A DNA stretch of 48,676 nucleotides. It comes from Geobacteraceae bacterium (GTDB lineage Bacteria; Desulfobacterota; Desulfuromonadia; Geobacterales; Geobacteraceae). The stretch covers positions 1-48,676 of the forward strand of contig JANXYN010000073.1 of assembly GCA_025356035.1 (NCBI GenBank), in the 5' to 3' direction. Positions 32,276-48,676 of this stretch are shown piece by piece. Every line of letters begins with the position of its first letter. Positions within the stretch are counted from its first letter, which is position 1. The notes beneath the pieces are model-generated. The model saw only the letters and a list, made by a program, of their open reading frames with translations. It did no database searches and was not told the DNA's origin. The translations under genes and the position numbers were made by a program.

Positions 32276-33715
32276 CTACTTTACTCTGAACGCGAAATAT
32301 ATACTGGCATCGCCCCGCTTCACGAGAAGCGCCACCGAACCTGTTTTTTCGGCTTCACGGGCCGCCTTCTTAAAGTCCGTGAGACTGGCAATCGGTCGCT
32401 GATTGATGGAGACTATGATGTCGCCCTGCTGCAGCCCCCCCTCGTCAGCGATGCTCCCAGCTTCAACGTCGGTGACCACCACGCCGCTGACTCCTTGCGT
32501 CTGCATGCTCGGCGGCAATGCATCCACGGTGAGCCCCATCCAGTTTGATGGTTCCATTTCTCTTTGTTTAGTTGGTTTCGGCTGAGCGCGCTCTGCGCTC
32601 CCCATGGTCAAGGAAAGCTTCACCAGCTTGCCTTTGCGAAACACTTCAACTTCTACGCTTTTACCCGCAGGGGTTTCCGCTGCCATCCGCTGCAGGTGCT
32701 GGACATCCTTGACCTCGTTACCGGCAAACCGGGTGATGATATCCCCCTGCCGAATGCCGGCTTCGGCGGCAGGGCTCCCCCCAATGACATCGCTGACCAG
32801 CGCCCCCTTACTCTTGTTGTAGCCAAAGGAGCGAGCAATCTCCTGGGTCACCGGCTGGATGCTTACTCCCAGCCAGCCGCGGGCTACATGTCCTTTCTGG
32901 ATCAGCTGGGGAAGTTCATGCTTTGCCATGTTGATCGGAATGGCGAAACCGATCCCCTGGCCGGCAGCGACAATGGCGGTATTGATGCCGATCACCTCGC
33001 CATAGATATTTAACAGCGGTCCGCCCGAGTTGCCCGGATTGATGGAAGCGTCGGTCTGGATGAAATCCTCATAGGTTTCAATCCCCATGTTGGACCGGCC
33101 GGTTGCCGATATCACCCCGACAGTGAAGGTCCTGTCAAGGCCAAAAGGGTTGCCGATGGCGATGGCCCATTGCCCCACCAAAAGCTTGTCAGAGTCTCCC
33201 AGCACCGCAAAGGGAAGGTCTTCACTGGCATTGATCTTGACCACCGCAATGTCCGTCTTCGGGTCCGCGCCAACGACCTTGCCTTTGTAGACCTTTTCGT
33301 TGGAGAGTTTTACCTGGATGCTCTCGGCATCACGTACCACATGGTCGTTGGTGAGAAGATACCCTTCCTTGTTGATGATAAAACCCGAACCAAGGCTCTT
33401 TTCCCGGCGGTATTGGGGCCGCCCACGCCGCCCGCCAAAGAAATCCTCAAACAAGGGGGAAGATTCAAAGAATGGCTCGATAATCTTTTTTTTGCTGATG
33501 GTGGATATATTGACTACCGCTGGGGTAACCTTTTTGGCAAGCTCGGTAAAGGCCTGCTGGGTGGCCAGCACGTCCTTGGGAACTTCCTTTACCGGCGCCT
33601 CTGCCGTCCCTCGCCGGGCCGATTCGGAGAAGAACGGCGGCGCCTTCTTTTCACAGGCAACAATCACCGTTAGGATGGCAAAGACAAGCAGGAAAAGCCA
33701 GGGCCTTTTCATCAT
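32276..33715 (-). CDS. HtrA/Do-type serine protease, predicted lipoprotein
   Basis: Envelope quality-control protease of 479 residues. The catalytic triad is His125 (TNDHVV), Asp155 (TDIAVVK) and Ser230 (NPGNSGGP). Two PDZ domains follow (about 290-380 and 395-470). The N-terminus MMKRPWLFLLVFAILTVIVAC has a lipobox IVAC with Cys21, so the protein is probably lipid-anchored in the periplasm. Most Do/DegP proteins are soluble or have an N-terminal membrane helix. GAGGG lies seven bases before the ATG at 33715. Upstream in-frame codons are ignored because they lack a ribosome-binding site and would hide the signal peptide. Confidence 0.93.
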   Translation of the reverse strand: MMKRPWLFLLVFAILTVIVACEKKAPPFFSESARRGTAEAPVKEVPKDVLATQQAFTELAKKVTPAVVNISTISKKKIIEPFFESSPLFEDFFGGRRGRPQYRREKSLGSGFIINKEGYLLTNDHVVRDAESIQVKLSNEKVYKGKVVGADPKTDIAVVKINASEDLPFAVLGDSDKLLVGQWAIAIGNPFGLDRTFTVGVISATGRSNMGIETYEDFIQTDASINPGNSGGPLLNIYGEVIGINTAIVAAGQGIGFAIPINMAKHELPQLIQKGHVARGWLGVSIQPVTQEIARSFGYNKSKGALVSDVIGGSPAAEAGIRQGDIITRFAGNEVKDVQHLQRMAAETPAGKSVEVEVFRKGKLVKLSLTMGSAERAQPKPTKQREMEPSNWMGLTVDALPPSMQTQGVSGVVVTDVEAGSIADEGGLQQGDIIVSINQRPIASLTDFKKAAREAEKTGSVALLVKRGDASIYFAFRVK

Positions 33716-33846
33716 GGGGGAACCCTCGTGAACAGCTGGTAAATAACGGAGAACCAGTGAAAGAGTAGCCAAATCAAGGGGGAATGTCAATGGATTTGAG
33801 CGGGAGGCCAGTCCCGGCACGCGTGCAGAACCGGCGGACAGCTAGG

Positions 33847-38695: not shown

Positions 38696-38817
38696 GCCTC
38701 ACGTTACGAGCTGATCGAACCTTTTCTCCTTGCCCGTCACCGTCTTCTTCTTCTATACTACCTTTTGCAAATGCGATTCGACAGTCGTCTCCCGTTACCA
38801 TTTCAAGGCAGGTTACC

Positions 38818-41800
38818 ATGTTTGATTCAAGCCGGTCCGGCCCGCTTGCCACCCTGTCTGTTGCCGATCTGAAGGGGCAACTGGCAACGCTGCTGCAGGA
38901 TGCCAAGGCGATCACCCCTTTGCAGCGCGCTTTCAGCTGGGCAGTCAACCGTCTTGATCCGGCTGCACCCCTGCTGGTAGTCTGCGGCCATGTTTGCAGT
39001 GGCAAATCTTCCCTGATCAATGCTTTGCTTGGCGATGACATCATGCCGGTTTCACCGGTCCCCCTTTCGGCGATTCCTGTTTTTATAAGCTACGGAGATG
39101 CCGCAGCGGTAGCCTATTTTCTGGACGGAACCGCTATAGCCCTGGATGGTGCCGGGCTTTACGAGGCAGCAGCCGGCAAAATCAATGGTGTTACCCATTT
39201 GCACGTCACGCTTCCTTCACCATTTCTCAAACAGGGGGTGGTGCTCGTTGATTCCCCCCCCCTCGACCATCCCCTCCAGTCGGTGCGAGAAACTGCGGTG
39301 CTGCTGCAGGAACAGGCCGATATTGCTTTCCTGCTGATGGATTATAAGCGGGTTCAAACTGAAGATAATCAGCATGCCCTGCAACAATTCAATGAGCTCG
39401 GCATCCCGGTGATCCCGCTGGTCACCCAGATGGACAAGCACTCTGCTGCAGAAACCCCGCTGGCAGAGTACAAGGCCGCGTCTATGGAGTGGCTGGCGGA
39501 TGCGGGCGGGCGGAGACAACTGTCGTGCTTTGTCAGCCTGCGCATGATTAACGGCGTTGACGGCATTCAGGAGGCCCTGCGGACCATCCTCTTCTCTGCC
39601 ACCCTTGCTACCAGAATGAGACGGGACCAGTCCATCCAGCGGCTTCTTGCCAGGCTTGCTGCAGCAATCGGCATTGACGAATACCAGCAGCTCGCAGCCG
39701 CTGTCGACCACTGCCGGCGGAAAAAGGGCGAGCTGGCCGATGAACTGATGCGCCTGCGGAAACTGCCCGACACTGCGGCGACCAGGGTGCTAGATGCTAT
39801 GGAAGGGGTGCTGTCCGGCGCTGCTAGCAGCAATTTGTTGCGGGCATACGGCGAAAGCCTGGTGGAATCGGGCCTCCCCAGCTTCAGTATCGGCATTTTC
39901 AACCTGCGCCGGGCCAGGGAGAGGGAACGTCAACAGCGGCTCGACCTCTTCATGGAGGAGTTCGCGCGCCTGGCGGAACATGCTCTGGTAAGGAAGGCCC
40001 GTGACATCTTTACCGAACAGATAGCGCCGCTATACGAGCCTGGTCCCACCGGGAAAAGGGCGATCAACGGGATTTCCCTCCGCATTCCTCCGGCTGCCGT
40101 GCTGCATCTGGCGCTGCAGAACAATGGGGTAGGCGAACCCGTCAGCTACTTTTTCAGCAAGTTTTCCACGATGACCAGCAATACCCTGCGCACCGCCGTG
40201 CGCCAGGCGCTGGGCATCCTGCAGGCCGAGATGGGCGAATACTGTGACGCCCGCACAGCTCCACTGGAAAGTGAACTGCACAACGTCACCAGCGACCTGC
40301 AACTCAAGTCGGCGGAAATGAACAACTACGCGGCGGGACACCAGCTGGTCGAGCGGATTGCCGCCTTGCTCGTTGCGCTCAACGGCTTGCCAGCCTCGGC
40401 TGATGAGAAGCCCGCACATCCAATCAAGCCTCTGACACCCTATAGGACTCCACCCCCTGCGGCAACGGCAATGCAGACGACAGACGATACGGCGGTGCCT
40501 CCCCCGATTTCGTCTGGGGCAGCGTTGCAGGTCCTGCGGCAATACAGACAAAGGAAAACCGCCCTGCTTGCGGCGCTGGAAGCAGCCGGTGCGATTATCA
40601 CCCGCACCGGTGCGCCGGCAGATGCAGCCCCACTGCGTCGCCTTGCCGGTGACATAGGCGGCGACCAGCTGCGAGTCGCTATCTTTGGCGCTACCTCGTC
40701 CGGCAAGAGCACCCTGGCCAACGCCCTCATCGGCCGCCGCTTGCTCCTTTCATCGCCAAATCGTACCGCCACGCTCCCCACGCATCTGGTTGCTGCGACG
40801 CACGGCGCGGAACGGGTGGTGGCCCACTTCAAGTCGCTGCCGGAGCTGGCCATGGAGGTCGAAAGCGTCCTGCTGGTGCTGGGCTACCAGGGGAGAGAGA
40901 TCAATCTGGCGGACCCTGACGGGGCAAAGACCTTGCTGGCCGTTGCCCATGAGTTATCCCAAACCGCCACCGCCAACGGCCGGCAAGCAGCCGATTTTCT
41001 CGGAGCCGTCGCAAATGCCCTGCTTACTGGCGTCGACCGCCTGGGGAGCAGCACGGAACTCCCCTTGGAGCAGTTCCGGGAAGCGCTCGCCATGGCTGAG
41101 GAGACCGCGCTGGTGCGTGAGATCCAGCTGGAGATCGCAGCAGAATTTCTCGCTGGCGGCGTTCATCTGGTGGATACTCCCGACATCGGCTATTTCGACG
41201 GCAGGCATGCCGAGACCGCGTTTCAGTTGCTTCTTGACAGTGATGCGGTCATCTTCGTCAGTTATTACAACCAGGGCATTTCCCGGGCGGATCTGCAATT
41301 CCTGCAACGGCTGCAGAGGATCAATCGGATTTTTGGCCGGGACAACATTTTTTTCGTGGTGTCTGCCGCCGACCTGGCGGGTGCCAATCCCCAGGAAATA
41401 TCCGAGGTCACGGCGCATCTCCGGCAGATGCTGCACGAACTCGGCATGGCAGACCTGCGCATCGACCCCCTGTCAGCCGATCTCTTTTTATTGACTGCTG
41501 CCGTCGACCGGGCAGCTATAGAGCCAGACCTGCTAGACCTCTATAAACGCCGGGCCATGATCGACCGTTTCGCAGCACTCCCCGATCCCGGACTGAACCG
41601 GACCGCTTCCGGTATTCCGGGTTTTGTCGACAAGCTCGAGACGTTTTTAGTTTCCCGCAGGACGCCAACCCTCGCCAACAGCAAAGCAGCGACGGTTGCC
41701 GCCCTGACTGAACTACTCTTTGTCAAGGCCCGGACTCTCAACCTGATGGGACAGGACCCGCCTGGTTATTTGTACCAGTACCAGTTATACCGCGAGTCGA

Positions 41801-42654
41801 TGCAGGAAGCACGGGAGGCGTTTGCCGAATTGGTCGATGAACTCGGGAGTTCCGTGGAAGGAGCCCTTGCCAGGGTCACCAAGGAAAGGGCTAAGGTCCT
41901 TCACCTGGCGCGGCTGCAGCTTGAGGCAGAGTTGCCGCTGCTTCTGACCGAGCTGTTGACCCCCATTGACCCAGCCAGGCTATTGCCGGAACAGTTCAAA
42001 CAGGAACTGCTGCGTGCCGCCCACGAGTTTTTCGTCCGGGTAGCGGCAGAGTGCGCCCTGGAGCAGCGGCTCGCCGCGCTCCAGATGTTCCAGATGTTCG
42101 TTCGCGAAGCTGCTGCAATCGAAGGTCACGGCGCCTCACGGATTGCGGCGATCAAGGGGAGCTTGGCCAAATCCGCCCTGGCAGAAGAGCGGCAATTCGC
42201 CAGGCATGAGCCAGGACTGGCCGGGAAACTGGCTTTCGCCGGTTTTGGTGCCAAGGAATTCGAAGCAGGGGAATTGGCAAAACAGGTGAGTTCGGCGATT
42301 GACCTGGTGAAGCGGGGGGACGAATTGAAATCGACGCTCCGCCAGGCACTGCAGGTCACCGTTACGGCAGAACTGGCAGACTTGTTCGTCGCCATGGAAC
42401 TGGATCTGGAAGATGTTTTGGATAGCCGGAGTGCAGAATTCTACAGTCTGCTCTGCAAGGAGCTGGAAGGCCACCTGGAGCTATATCTGCAGCAATGCAG
42501 GGCGGGTTTTGTGCGCCTGGAGCGGTTCCACGCCCTGGATGCGGAGGGGCAGGCGGCCGAACGACGGGCGCTGGAGCGGGAAATCGCCGATATTGCCGGG
42601 GCGGTTGCCGCGGTGGAGCGAGCGGCCACCCCGGATTCACCTATCTCCCCTTAG
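38818..42654 (+). CDS. Tandem dynamin-like GTPase
   Basis: A 1278-residue protein with two GTPase domains in one chain. Module 1: P-loop GHVCSGKSSL at 57-66, the serine/proline switch-I region near 78-87, the G3 segment DSPPL at 146-150, and TQMDK at 203-207. Module 2: P-loop GATSSGKSTL at 624-633, DTPD at 786-789, and VSAADL at 848-853. Long helical stretches follow each. This is the layout of fused bacterial dynamin-like proteins such as Bacillus DynA, which bind and fuse membranes and help cells survive phage. The G4 of module 2 (AAD) departs from NKxD. ATG 38818 follows AAGGCAGG. It is read alone. Confidence 0.88.
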   Translation: MFDSSRSGPLATLSVADLKGQLATLLQDAKAITPLQRAFSWAVNRLDPAAPLLVVCGHVCSGKSSLINALLGDDIMPVSPVPLSAIPVFISYGDAAAVAYFLDGTAIALDGAGLYEAAAGKINGVTHLHVTLPSPFLKQGVVLVDSPPLDHPLQSVRETAVLLQEQADIAFLLMDYKRVQTEDNQHALQQFNELGIPVIPLVTQMDKHSAAETPLAEYKAASMEWLADAGGRRQLSCFVSLRMINGVDGIQEALRTILFSATLATRMRRDQSIQRLLARLAAAIGIDEYQQLAAAVDHCRRKKGELADELMRLRKLPDTAATRVLDAMEGVLSGAASSNLLRAYGESLVESGLPSFSIGIFNLRRARERERQQRLDLFMEEFARLAEHALVRKARDIFTEQIAPLYEPGPTGKRAINGISLRIPPAAVLHLALQNNGVGEPVSYFFSKFSTMTSNTLRTAVRQALGILQAEMGEYCDARTAPLESELHNVTSDLQLKSAEMNNYAAGHQLVERIAALLVALNGLPASADEKPAHPIKPLTPYRTPPPAATAMQTTDDTAVPPPISSGAALQVLRQYRQRKTALLAALEAAGAIITRTGAPADAAPLRRLAGDIGGDQLRVAIFGATSSGKSTLANALIGRRLLLSSPNRTATLPTHLVAATHGAERVVAHFKSLPELAMEVESVLLVLGYQGREINLADPDGAKTLLAVAHELSQTATANGRQAADFLGAVANALLTGVDRLGSSTELPLEQFREALAMAEETALVREIQLEIAAEFLAGGVHLVDTPDIGYFDGRHAETAFQLLLDSDAVIFVSYYNQGISRADLQFLQRLQRINRIFGRDNIFFVVSAADLAGANPQEISEVTAHLRQMLHELGMADLRIDPLSADLFLLTAAVDRAAIEPDLLDLYKRRAMIDRFAALPDPGLNRTASGIPGFVDKLETFLVSRRTPTLANSKAATVAALTELLFVKARTLNLMGQDPPGYLYQYQLYRESMQEAREAFAELVDELGSSVEGALARVTKERAKVLHLARLQLEAELPLLLTELLTPIDPARLLPEQFKQELLRAAHEFFVRVAAECALEQRLAALQMFQMFVREAAAIEGHGASRIAAIKGSLAKSALAEERQFARHEPGLAGKLAFAGFGAKEFEAGELAKQVSSAIDLVKRGDELKSTLRQALQVTVTAELADLFVAMELDLEDVLDSRSAEFYSLLCKELEGHLELYLQQCRAGFVRLERFHALDAEGQAAERRALEREIADIAGAVAAVERAATPDSPISP

Positions 42655-44274: not shown

Positions 44275-45192
44275 TTAAGTATTGATGTCCCCGGAATTCC
44301 CCGCAATGGGCAAGATACCGTTGCATTTCGGATAGGAAGTACACCCCCAGAATTCATTGCCAGCGTTGCTCCCCTGGCGAGCCACGCGCTTTTTCATTTC
44401 TGCTCCGCATTTCGGGCATACCGGAGCAACCGGTGCAACAGGCGGCTTTCTGGAATCCGCTGCAACCGGCACAGACAACACAATATGAGAAATCCTGGGA
44501 TCCGCCGCGACACGAGACGGCACAGCCTGTTGCGCAATATCTATCATTCCCCTGAGCTTCCGTCCGTCCACCAGTTCGACGTTGAGCCCTTGGGCAAAAG
44601 TCACCGCCTCGTTGGTGTACTCGCCGGAAGTAACGAAATAGCCGCCCGCAACACCCCGTGACGCCATAACCCCGTAAAACTCGCGCACCGGTTGCACCCC
44701 GACCTTGTACGCTTTCCACTGTTTGCACTGCACCAGATAGGTTTCGCCATTCTGGCGAAGTACCAGATCGATACCGCCATCGGGACCATTGCCACCCTCA
44801 CGTGTCACCTGGAAACCTTTGCGCCGATAGTACTCGCTCACCAGGCGTTCGAAATCGCCCCAACTCATCTCATTCAGAGCAGCGACACCGGGACGCTTTG
44901 CCACCGTGTTGTAGAGCTTTTTCTGGTTGGTGGCATTGAACGCCGAGATTAGGGCTCCGAGGCCAAAGACAAAGGAAAGAACGTACTGGCCGAACATTGC
45001 CAGTGTCGTTGCGAGCCCTCTTACTGCGGCATCGCCCACCTGCCCAGGCCCGGCAACGTGTAGCGGCGGGCGTGAGGCGAGAGCATGCAGCACCAGATAT
45101 GACACCAGTGCCAACGTGATCCCGACCCACCACGGCAGCTTACTTATCACTAGGATCAAATCTTCTACAGGGCTTTTCTTTTGTCGAGCCAT
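44275..45192 (-). CDS. Membrane-anchored Mrr-type restriction endonuclease with zinc ribbon
   Basis: A 305-residue protein with three parts. Two hydrophobic helices (about 20-38 and 66-86) anchor it to the membrane. An Mrr-like PD-(D/E)xK domain (about 105-220) has Asp142 in GPDGGIDLVL and Gln155-Cys-Lys157 in YLVQCKQWK. A C-terminal topoisomerase-type zinc ribbon follows (CPKCGAEM, then FWGCTSYPKC). Mrr nucleases restrict modified or foreign DNA; a membrane anchor suggests action on incoming DNA at the envelope. The ATG at 45192 has AAGGAG upstream. Confidence 0.85.
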   Translation of the reverse strand: MARQKKSPVEDLILVISKLPWWVGITLALVSYLVLHALASRPPLHVAGPGQVGDAAVRGLATTLAMFGQYVLSFVFGLGALISAFNATNQKKLYNTVAKRPGVAALNEMSWGDFERLVSEYYRRKGFQVTREGGNGPDGGIDLVLRQNGETYLVQCKQWKAYKVGVQPVREFYGVMASRGVAGGYFVTSGEYTNEAVTFAQGLNVELVDGRKLRGMIDIAQQAVPSRVAADPRISHIVLSVPVAADSRKPPVAPVAPVCPKCGAEMKKRVARQGSNAGNEFWGCTSYPKCNGILPIAGNSGDINT

Positions 45193-45288
45193 AAATTCTC
45201 CTTGACTTGTGTTGCGCGCCGTGTAGCGCACCCAGCTGATACGGATACATCCGCGCCTCTGATTTCGATATTTTCATCTAAAACAAAG

Positions 45289-46281
45289 CTACAACCGCCA
45301 TTCCCGCCGATGTTCGGCAAGGTAGTGCCGGGCCGGCCAGAGATCGCGGTCCGCTGGCCCGATGATGCTACGGCTGGTGAGTGTCAAAAGAAAACCGGGC
45401 ACATTTGGATTGGCGGCGATCTGGCGCGAGGTGATGACGTTGTAGTTGTCGGATATCCCCATCATTCCCTCGTCAAACGCCCAGTGGCAGAGTTTGCAGA
45501 GGGCCATGCCGTTGCGGATGTCATCGTTCTTGCTTCTGCTCCAGGGGATGATGTGGGCGGCATCCACCACGGTGTGCCCTTCCGGCGTGATGATCCGTAC
45601 CCCGCACAGGGCGCAGCGGTGGTCGTAAGTGGTGACCACGATGCGCCGGAAGCCCTGGTCCCGGACGGCAGGTTTGTAGGCGTCTGCCTCCAGCGTTTCC
45701 TGGACCAGCGGCAGGTGGGCCTTCTGCTCCAGCTCTAGGCTGTAGCTGTAGGCTTCGGCATTGATGGTTGCCTGCTCTTCAAGGGCAGCCCGACCCTCTT
45801 CCGAGAAGCACGAACGCAGCAGCGCCTCGCGCAGGGCATTGCGGCTTGCGGGCTCTTGCAGGTAATGGAAGAGGTCTTCATCCATGCGAGCACCCAACGC
45901 GACCGTGCGGAGCTGGCTGACCGAGGCGATGTTGTTGATGGATGCCGGTGTGATCTTTTGCCCTGGCAGCGGCACCAGTTCCCAGAACGGTTCGTTGTGC
46001 AGGCGGGAGAAGGGAAAGGAGATGCTGCTGGTTTGGCCAAGCGGGATGATGCGCCGCCAGTAGAGGTTGAACAGTTCGTTCAATTCGACCAGGTCAACCG
46101 TGACAGCGATGAATGGTGAGGTGATGACGCCACGGGCCATCAGGTCCAGCACCGCCAGGAGCAGGATTGGTTTGTGGGGGGCGCGATTCTTCGTGCTCTC
46201 GGTCCAAACTCGCCCTGGTGCCCTGTTGAGACTGGAAAACTGCCGTATGTAGGTTTCGAGCTCGGTCATGGGCTCTTCCAT
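45289..46281 (-). CDS. HNH endonuclease, COG3440/McrA-like
   Basis: A 330-residue predicted restriction nuclease. The C-terminal HNH domain has CALCGVRI, DAAHIIPWS and NGMALCKLCHWAFDEG (about 220-265), with paired zinc cysteines. The N-terminal domain has APHKPILLLAVLDLM and LHNEPFWELV, a pattern found in COG3440 nucleases and reminiscent of the sulfur-binding domain of ScoMcrA-type enzymes that cut phosphorothioated DNA. That is an inference and methylation-dependent cutting is also possible. Its start overlaps the HIT gene stop (TAATG), so the two are coupled. Confidence 0.83.
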   Translation of the reverse strand: MEEPMTELETYIRQFSSLNRAPGRVWTESTKNRAPHKPILLLAVLDLMARGVITSPFIAVTVDLVELNELFNLYWRRIIPLGQTSSISFPFSRLHNEPFWELVPLPGQKITPASINNIASVSQLRTVALGARMDEDLFHYLQEPASRNALREALLRSCFSEEGRAALEEQATINAEAYSYSLELEQKAHLPLVQETLEADAYKPAVRDQGFRRIVVTTYDHRCALCGVRIITPEGHTVVDAAHIIPWSRSKNDDIRNGMALCKLCHWAFDEGMMGISDNYNVITSRQIAANPNVPGFLLTLTSRSIIGPADRDLWPARHYLAEHRREWRL

Positions 46282-46664
46282 TACGCCGCCTTCTTGGGCA
46301 TGATCCAGCGTACTCCGCCGCGCGGGTCGTCCGTGTCGCCGGCATAGCGGGGGATCAGGTGGATATGCAGGTGCATTACAGTCTGACCGGCGGCTGCGCC
46401 GTCGTTGATACCGATGTTAAAGCCGTCGGGGCTTCGTTCTGCCTGTAGATGCTGGCGCATTCCGGCCAGCAGGTCGAGCAACGCCGTCTGCTCTTCTCTG
46501 GTTGCATCGAAGAAAGAGTCAATGTGGCGCTTCGGGACGATCAGGCTGTGGCCGGGGGTGACGGGGAAGCCGTCGGGGAAGGCCACCGCGTGGTCGTTGG
46601 CCAGGATGACCCTGGATTTGTCCAGATTGCAGAAGGGGCAAGCGGGTTGATTGGTAATCTCCAT
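46281..46664 (-). CDS. HIT family nucleotide-binding protein
   Basis: A 127-residue histidine triad protein. The triad is MHLHIHLIPRY (about 97-107); an N-terminal CPFC pair may bind zinc. HIT enzymes hydrolyse or transfer nucleotide monophosphates (AMP-lysine, dinucleoside polyphosphates). GGGACATAACG precedes the ATG. It is the first gene of a two-gene unit with the HNH nuclease, a pairing that suggests a defence role rather than the usual housekeeping one. Confidence 0.87.
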   Translation of the reverse strand: MEITNQPACPFCNLDKSRVILANDHAVAFPDGFPVTPGHSLIVPKRHIDSFFDATREEQTALLDLLAGMRQHLQAERSPDGFNIGINDGAAAGQTVMHLHIHLIPRYAGDTDDPRGGVRWIMPKKAA

Positions 46665-46733: not shown

Positions 46734-48530
46734 TTATTCAGTCTTTATGTTGGTAACCACAGGCCCTCGATAATTGAAGGCAAGCTCAAAAACAACTCGT
46801 CTTTCGGTTTTAAGTTGATCCCAAAAACCTCTGTTGCCATTGTAACGATATGCAAATATTTTATCTCCTGTACCGTCTTTTACGATAAAGGCATGGGAGT
46901 GCTCAACTTTAAAAACTTTCCCATGGTAAACCTTCGGCTTGTTATTTTCCATTACAGTAGCTTGTGATTCCTTTTTTAGGATCAGGCTTGCCTTCGAATC
47001 ACCTAGTGCTTTAAAAACACGCAAAGCCTCATCAATTTCACCAGCCAAATATAGACTCCGAGCATAAAAGAATTGCGCGTTGTAATTTACATCACCTTGA
47101 GTAAAAGATCGCCTTAAATGATGAATAATGTCTCCGGCGCTGTCAGGTTTGACATCTATGAGATATTTTGCTAGAGTGAAGTGTATGTCCTTACTAGAAG
47201 GGTTTATATCTAAGCATTCTTTCAGAACACGTATTGCTTCATCAACCTGGCCCATATCTTTATACACCTTAGCTAATCGGCTTGCAATGTAAGGACTCTT
47301 TTTATTTGAAGCAAAAGCTTTTTTGATAGATTCAAATGCCTTCGGTTCAGATCTTATTAAATGACAGAATTGTGACTCTGCATCAAGAATAAAACTATCA
47401 GACGGAAAGGCTTGAAGCGCTCTAAATATATATTCCTCAACTTCCTTCACTTTCCGCTCAAAAGAAACATCATCTCCTGTATGCATAGCATCTTTAATTT
47501 CATCGATTCCGAGCTTTATTATGGTATGAAATGGATGCGAAGAACTGGAGTCAGTTACTGTCAATTCGGATGATATTTTTTTGGCCTGTTCTCTTAACTT
47601 AATTCTCTCTGCTGGATTAGTTGCACAATCTGCTTGCTTTATTAAAAGCATAGCTACTGAATGTGTGATGCTTTTTCTCTGAGCTGTAAATGCTAACTTA
47701 TAACTCTTATCTAAGAGCTCCTTTGCTTTTTCTAGACTTCCGCCGTCTACATTCATCTCAAATATTGCTTGCTGCTGAAGAAGCATAGGATCGTCCGGGC
47801 ACCTGCTCCCTGCAACCACATATATATTCCTAATCATTTCATTATTAGGGAAGATAGAAAGTAACCTTCTGGCAGATACAAGGCCCTTAAATCCATCCCT
47901 ATCGGCGTTATAATCAATATCTAGATGGTTCAGTATCCTGATATACTCGTCGTACCTGCTTTGCAAGTCAACCAGTGCTCGCTCAAATATTATTTCTGCA
48001 ATATTTTGGTGACGCGTAAGGTAAACATGGTCTTTAATAATTGCATCATTTATGGCAAAGACTATGTATTCAAGAGGTCTAAAGAGTTTATCCATGAACT
48101 CACTAAAAGGGATACCATGTACCCTAGAAATTAGACCTGCGCGGGTGTGAACACCAAGTCTATGCATTATTGCAACGGTAAGGTATAACGATTGAGCTTG
48201 AGGATTTGAAATGGACTTATACTCATCGTAAATAATATCCTCAAAAGGCTTGCCAGACGTTGCTTCATGCAATGCAACCAATAGCTGTCTTCCTGCTTTT
48301 TGAGTTAGCAGCTCTTTTTGCTGCTGAGGCAACATGCCATCCATGTAGCCAAGAGAATTGTTCTTTCTAAGAAGATCCAAGAGTATCCCTATCTCTTTAG
48401 AGCTTAGGTACCTTAGTTCATACTCAGTGGATAGATATGGATGCAGCTCTGTACAATATGTATTCCATTCGTTGCTCCTCTCGCAGGTGATGATACTAAG
48501 CAACATTTGATCTTTTCTTGCACGATCCAT
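46734..48530 (-). pseudogene. STAND-like NTPase with TPR repeats, 5' part lost to an IS30 element
   Basis: The remaining part (about 598 residues from ATG 48530) matches the second half of a STAND-type P-loop ATPase. ITCERSNEWN (sensor-type segment) is at its start, followed by a helical region (RQLLVALHEATSGKPFEDII). TPR-like repeats follow (about 380-520, e.g. SPYIASRLAKVYKDMGQVDEAIRVL), then a C-terminal OB/cold-shock-like segment (GKVFKVEHSHAFIVKDGTGDKIFA). Walker A/B are absent because the sequence upstream of about 48530 is the 3' end of an IS30 transposase. The region is AT-rich, suggesting transfer. Such proteins are common sensors in antiphage systems. It ends at a normal stop and has no internal stops, so it is a truncated rather than decayed gene. 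Confidence 0.75.
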
Positions 48531-48544
48531 GAACAGGGTGAATT

Positions 48545-48675
48545 CAAATTGCAAGTGCACCATGTAGAGCTTTGGTGAAAACCTCATGTGGAGTCTGGTA
48601 ACTGAGACATTTACGAGGTCTGTGGTTCAGCCGTTCAACAGCCTCTGCAATTGCTTCGCCTGTAATCTCCCGAAA
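48545..48675 (-). mobile_element. IS30-family transposase, 3' end
   Basis: On the minus strand the last 43 codons before a TGA (48545-48547) read FREITGEAIAEAVERLNHRP, then RKCLSYQTPHEVF and KALHGALAI. This is the conserved C-terminus of IS30-family transposases (RLNxRPRKCLGYxTPxEVF). The rest of the element lies beyond the window. The IS end must fall between 48545 and about 48515, just before the STAND-like coding sequence; I could not place the terminal inverted repeat with confidence. Confidence 0.9.
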
Positions 48676-48676
48676 G

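Follow-up and report, generated by a model that had tools for sequence, protein, structure and literature searches.

The architecture of the gene analysed here has two precedents, Avs5 and SAMD9. In the case of Avs5, the activated SIR2 domain hydrolyses NAD+, recognition of phage ligands has been ascribed tentatively to the C-terminal repeats (PMC12931631), and both Avs5 and ThsA have been described as acting in the form of filaments (PMC12700824). In STAND proteins with C-terminal repeats, the TIR effector has been reported to be replaceable by SIR2 (PMC9122126). In the case of the human antiviral protein SAMD9, a family core consisting of SIR2, P-loop, TPR and OB domains was described in 2017 by Mekhedov, including bacterial members, many of which carry a kinase domain (PMC5445408).

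We describe a gene that, with good confidence, was inactivated when a 1.1-kb element of the IS30 family inserted just past its Walker B motif, and that in its intact form most likely encoded a single-gene SIR2-STAND-TPR-cold-shock immune protein. The analysed stretch of DNA, in the following called the window, comprises 48,676 nt from a Geobacteraceae bacterium (GCA_025356035.1, contig JANXYN010000073.1, positions 1-48,676 of the forward strand) and corresponds to one entire contig, C49, of a 3.40 Mb genome in 227 contigs.

The last frame of the window (46734-48536, minus strand) represents ~58% of the disrupted gene, namely its C-terminal part. It has 600 codons between the IS junction and its own stop, none of them a stop, and contains the later STAND module, the TPR array and the cold-shock domain. 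The initial annotation had reported a 598-residue frame with TPR repeats at this place; both were found, the frame running from ATG 48530 to the stop at 46734 on the minus strand and the core of the TPR array (47004-47339, minus strand) being matched by Pfam, while in the AlphaFold model the helical repeats reach further N-terminally. The same annotation had seen in this frame the second half of a STAND-like ATPase, which holds as far as a STAND part is retained; the fragment begins past both Walker A and Walker B and thus keeps the later part alone. An intact gene starting from ATG 48530 was considered and rejected, because 15/15 homologs run ~430 residues further upstream, so that the truncation reading stands.

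The C-terminal domain of the fragment (46737-46964, minus strand) had been annotated as an OB-like tail. Its signal is weak by sequence, with Pfam CSD values of E 0.005-0.095 (0.005 for the domain alone), all below cut-off, and clear by fold. The AlphaFold model of the fragment has a mean pLDDT of 81.7, is poor near the junction (pLDDT <50 at residues 1-5, 8-26 and 32-41) and ends in a five-stranded barrel. In VIA comparisons this tail matched the cold-shock domain of YBX1 (6ktc) with Z 11.8 and an rmsd of 1.7 Å over 71 residues, and CspA (1mjc) with Z 10.8.

The upstream edge of the frame is at the same time an assembly break, as C49 ends inside a repeated element. The 140 bp of this element that lie in the window (48537-48676, minus strand) represent its right end and include the C-terminus of the transposase, with its stop at 48544-48546. 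The right end could be set at 48537 by a 25-bp end sequence that matches the window once (48537-48561, minus strand) and that gave 0 matches in 100 shuffles. Transposase and frame had been proposed to meet within about 30 bases, and indeed the transposase stop lies ~14 bases ahead of ATG 48530, while only 7 bases separate the end of the element from this ATG, which is not far off. Between the element and the ATG lies the triplet CTG in minus-strand reading (48534-48536).

When the N-terminal part of an intact homolog was used as a query against this genome, a single match was obtained, located on contig C219 (107-1399, E 3.3e-106, 40% identity, stop-free). The corresponding frame starts with a TTG behind AGGAG and has 437 codons, the final three of which are within the element; the contig C219 itself ends 97 bases inside the left end of the same element found on C49. 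This half consists of the SIR2 domain plus Walker A and B, and retains LGSGAS, TTNYD, KLHGC, GHAGSGKT and RIYLFVD. The other half of the gene was thus found beyond the element, as the initial annotation had proposed to look for, and so was a target duplication: the triplet adjoining the element is CTG on both C219 and C49. When the two flanks were joined computationally with CTG present once, a single uninterrupted frame of 1,039 codons resulted, ~1,033 of them from the TTG. Kept separate, the two halves tile all 15 intact homologs and break at the same place in each, 11 residues past the conserved LFVD of Walker B. It should be added that no contig links C219 to C49 across a whole element, so that adjacency rests on the duplication and the frame.

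The disruption would leave an N-terminal product ending 3 residues into the element, and a C-terminal product devoid of the NADase and nucleotide-binding motifs. As SIR2 and Walker A/B are severed from both the sensor and the remainder of the NTPase, the function of the protein, and with it defence, is expected to be lost. Neither half shows an internal stop, in line with the earlier statement that the frame is otherwise undamaged. Since no other damage was found in ~1,033 codons and the copies of the element are near-identical, the insertion is probably recent. The population may be mixed with respect to it. The disruption of a defence gene by an insertion sequence is in itself ordinary genome decay.

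The element, which we take, with the initial annotation, to belong to the IS30 family, is present in at least 17 copies. The first ~140 minus-strand bases of C49 recur, whole or in part, at 16 other places of the genome (97-100% identity), and the left end gave 17 matches (99-100% identity). The sequences of its two ends, GGTAGAATCTAGTTCAAAGTGCACC and GGTGAATTCAAATTGCAAGTGCACC, form an imperfect inverted repeat. The only copy lying whole within one contig, on C59, has 1,110 bp and encodes a 328-residue transposase with HTH_38 and rve. The element therefore shows a DDE integrase-core (rve) transposase with an N-terminal HTH, terminal inverted repeats and a short target duplication, and the HTH_38 and rve transposase, the inverted repeats and the 3-bp duplications are shared with IS30-family insertion sequences without a notable difference. 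At the fetched junctions, 9/14 distinct left-flank triplets also occurred among the 13 distinct right-flank triplets, compared to ~3 expected at random, which indicates that 3-bp duplications are normal for this element.

Other copies of the element showed further details. The complete copy on C59 (L005:531-1640) is flanked by unlike triplets, CCG and TTT, which fit the ends on C182 and C75; this suggests either recombination between copies or a false assembly join. A second right end followed by CTG was found on C51, its flank being a different sequence. On C181 (L054:6728-9862, minus strand) a right end abuts an open frame of 1,045 codons that contains an nSTAND1 domain and weakly matches AP2, apparently a second STAND protein cut by the same element. 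Element ends also abut an AbiTii-like frame (L062:78-638, plus strand; 20.7 bits against a cut-off of 27.6), a NERD nuclease-related frame (L073:1025-1498, minus strand), and frames for a histidine kinase, a DUF4424 protein and a HlyD-type protein. Domain scans covered 10 of the 16 located frames that abut the element, and on this basis no preference for defence genes is claimed.

To describe the intact protein, 15 intact homologs of 1,027-1,051 residues were compared, originating from two genome contigs, five plasmids and eight viral contigs. All 15 are single chains. The order of domains is SIR2, nSTAND5 NTPase, TPR array and C-terminal cold-shock/OB domain, and the effector that had been sought in intact homologs is therefore the SIR2 domain. 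The Pfam scan comprised eight homologs, with six of the eight viral reading frames outside it; SIR2_2 and nSTAND_NTPase5 were above curated cut-offs in 8/8, followed by TPR matches. Regarding motifs, the P-loop GxxGxGK[ST] and K[LI]HG[CS] occur in 15/15 homologs, LG[AS]GA[LS] in 14/15, and Walker B as written in 12/15. TTN[YF]D was likewise found in 12/15, the pattern as written being absent from the other three. All scored motifs are present in the N-terminal half on C219.

The cold-shock tail is a feature of the family. Pfam CSD was detected in 10/16 tail segments at E <= 0.01, the best value being 7.6e-11. Among PDB sequences, a tail profile matched the cold-shock domains of Unr, CspA, CspB and Y-box proteins. 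For the full-length family profile, the PDB matches listed were TPR and SIR2 proteins, plus one cold-shock match. The view that a cold-shock-like segment is an unusual ending for such sensors was consequently not borne out, as it is the rule in this family and has a parallel in the published account of SAMD9 (PMC5445408). More distant SIR2 proteins of about 1,030-1,100 codons were also seen in the same phylum (L082, L083 and L084). None of the P-loop patterns tried was found in L082 and L083, so by motif content the family may grade into forms lacking a standard P-loop.

At the structural level, the homolog L039 was modelled over its full length (mean pLDDT 80.3, pTM 0.47) and compared to solved structures. 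In Foldseek the closest match was Avs5 (9jap, E 7.8e-23), followed by SAMD9 (9zjr, 1.4e-17), another Avs5 filament (9nc9, 2.4e-16) and DSR2 (4.5e-12). For the SIR2 domain of L039 the best VIA-align match was ThsA (8btp; Z 24.3, rmsd 2.6, 246 residues). Residues 1-841 of the 1028 in the model could be aligned to Avs5 by VIA-align (Z 21.9, 707 residues), with a large rmsd of 30.1 that reflects differently placed domains. Similarly, a profile of the STAND region found Avs5 as its best match among PDB sequences (E 8.9e-7), the next being at 0.018.

The family thus shares with Avs5 an N-terminal SIR2_2 domain, a central STAND module and C-terminal helical repeats. The N-terminal SIR2 expected of an Avs5-like NADase was found as SIR2_2 in 8/8 scanned homologs, for which this activity is predicted. 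There are also differences. The STAND module of the family is Pfam nSTAND5, above cut-off in 8/8, whereas that of Avs5 is described as nSTAND3 (PF20720; PMC12931631); nSTAND3 was seen in 1/8 scanned homologs (L043), with 22.2 bits against a cut-off of 27.2. Moreover, the TPRs are succeeded by a cold-shock domain lying outside the stretch alignable to Avs5, and Avs5 does not have this end. With DSR2, the family has in common the SIR2 domain and a large helical C-terminus. The NCBIfam models gave low scores for both systems, the homolog L041 reaching 27.3 bits with the Avs5 model NF041814 in the SIR2 region only (cut-off 1000) and 34.8 bits with the Dsr2 model NF041819 in the SIR2 part (cut-off 1400). 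The Dsr2 model matched 4/10 members at E <= 1e-3 (best 5.1e-12), and the Avs5 model was not among the 20 NCBIfam families matched by the 10 members at this threshold. Membership in Avs5 or DSR2 was rejected, as the scores are far under the NCBIfam cut-offs and the STAND module is not the nSTAND3 of Avs5.

In the case of SAMD9, the core order of SIR2, P-loop STAND, TPR and OB/cold-shock is the same as in the family. VIA-align placed residues 1-1027 of the L039 model on residues 390-1589 of SAMD9 (9zjv; 818 residues, Z 13.2), the large rmsd of 19.8 again being due to differently placed domains, and among the best 50 matches of the model only SAMD9 entries span from the SIR2 domain to the OB end. 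With the C-terminal fragment, SAMD9 (9zjz) came first (Z 14.4, rmsd 9.8, 469 residues), though plain TPR proteins scored equally, and because of this tie the likeness of the fragment alone is weak. The STAND profile matched 55 PDB sequences at E <= 1, with no SAMD9 among them. Altogether this indicates that the family resembles SAMD9 in its domain order and its fold.

Two features separate the family from SAMD9 proper, membership in which was rejected. Firstly, the P-loop lysine is kept, with GK[ST] in 15/15 homologs and in the N-terminal half of the window gene, whereas the SAMD9 family is described as having GGT/S with the lysine lost (PMC5445408). Secondly, Pfam detected neither AlbA-type nor SAM domains in the 8 scanned homologs; AlbA_2 is a domain of the SAMD9 family that is lost in some of its members. 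The family therefore differs from both precedents, with nSTAND5 in place of nSTAND3, the lysine kept and no AlbA domain found. One could go further and regard the intact family as a fully active bacterial counterpart of the SAMD9 core, with a working SIR2 NADase and P-loop and a cold-shock RNA sensor of phage or stress RNA, a proposal that we consider doubtful. If it were true, such a counterpart would link SIR2-STAND immunity of the Avs5 type to SAMD9, and it could resemble the ancestral form, from which animal SAMD9 would have departed by losing the P-loop lysine and acquiring a tRNase. The family is useful in that it offers the domain order of SAMD9 in a compact single SIR2-STAND-TPR-cold-shock gene, found on plasmids and prophages and in some cases testable in E. 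coli. This testability is helpful because predicting what the bacterial relatives of SAMD9 do has been described as difficult (PMC5445408; PMC13245274).

Homologs of the gene are rare, scattered single genes, many of them on plasmids and prophages. Matches were found in 14/72,556 plasmid records, in 1/50,697 phage records (N-terminal part only), and in 1/5,426 E. coli genomes with one query and 0/5,426 with another query at a different sensitivity. Viral contigs gave 8 near-full-length homologs among the 80 loci kept, the rest being partial and mostly SIR2. Within the phylum, 7/395 genomes matched at E <= 1e-20, partial matches included: the genome of the window itself, one full-length match (G583), three long ones (G594, G462, G364) and two of the SIR2 part only (G317, G311). 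Searches with the C-terminal fragment reached more widely, and the 108/293 own or related genomes matching at E <= 0.001 were treated as TPR matches and not as relatives; beyond the own genome the best match in these 293 genomes (E 8.9e-8) covers the TPR region only, as do nearly all other matches listed. The homolog of E. coli N18-04097 (L185:5980-9084, plus strand; WP_097725118.1) is located between the polarity suppression gene and the integrase of what looks like a P4-like satellite, and we take this psu-integrase interval to be a P4 hotspot. A further homolog, that of L093, lies in a P2-like prophage, where it is flanked by the portal gene (phrog_68) and by the gene for a P2-type replication protein (phrog_91); in P2-like phages, this site has been reported to be a hotspot of defence genes (PMC9122126).

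By homology to the described systems, the function of the intact family is likely NAD+-depleting abortive infection. In such a mechanism, the TPR array and the RNA-binding-type cold-shock domain would sense a phage product, the STAND module would bind ATP and oligomerise, and the clustered SIR2 domains would degrade NAD+, so that the cell stops before the phage multiplies. Given the cold-shock domain, RNA or single-stranded DNA is a candidate trigger. The literature searched, which included few subscription papers and no bioRxiv, contained no test of a family member for defence and no bacterial SIR2-STAND-TPR-cold-shock defence protein described as such. The same search, in which no phage assay of the family was found, would also fit a host regulatory NADase/STAND protein that has no part in defence. 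We consider this improbable, as the patchy occurrence described above (14/72,556 plasmid records, 1/5,426 E. coli genomes and 7/395 phylum genomes including partial matches), the location of homologs on viral contigs, within the P2 hotspot and in a P4-like satellite, and the presence of the anti-phage proteins Avs5, DSR2 and ThsA among the nearest solved folds speak against it.

Regarding the disruption itself, the ends of C49 and C219 might not be neighbours, the gene having been split by a rearrangement, through recombination between insertion sequences or by the assembler, and not by simple insertion; the C-terminal fragment would then have been joined to a copy of the element that has nothing to do with it. 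The number of copies, at least 17, and the mismatched flanks of the C59 copy, which fit two other contigs as recombination or a false join would give, are compatible with such a scenario; nevertheless, C49 and C219 share CTG, and their halves run on in one frame and meet at an identical position in 15/15 homologs, which makes it quite unlikely. Moreover, even after a rearrangement the gene would be interrupted by the element. It is also conceivable that the split gene continues to work as two proteins, one with SIR2 and the P-loop and one with the remaining STAND part, the TPRs and the cold-shock domain, or that an IS-driven C-terminal product has a role of its own, since both frames are open and undamaged and ATG codons are available in the flank (48530) and inside the element (48587). 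However, the cut falls inside the NTPase fold, past Walker B, and none of the 15 homologs departs from a single chain, so that we hold a working split gene to be very improbable. Inactivation by insertion of the element remains our preferred explanation.

Finally, the surroundings of the two halves were inspected. On C219 the broken gene is near an ATP synthase operon, whose AtpC, AtpD and AtpG names are our own reading of the sequence; the AtpC frame was matched in 48/48 family genomes. Synteny was assessed by comparing the genes of C49 and C219 to ~20 kb downstream of atpC in 12 relatives. AtpC was matched in 12/12 and the window region 32279-33841 (two overlapping frames) in one relative, and the comparison provided nothing for or against adjacency of the two contigs. 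Elsewhere in the window, a dynamin-like GTPase of about 1,282 codons (38806-42651, plus strand) matches the PADLOC LeoA model (E 8.6e-21); when the other 47 genomes of the family were searched, none contained a match to it at E <= 1e-50. On C49 the broken gene is followed by HIT, HNH and Mrr-type genes: adjoining it, a HIT protein, an HNH endonuclease and an Mrr-type endonuclease with a topoisomerase zinc ribbon stand in a row (44275-46664, minus strand). The HIT and HNH genes are also found together on an Aromatoleum plasmid.
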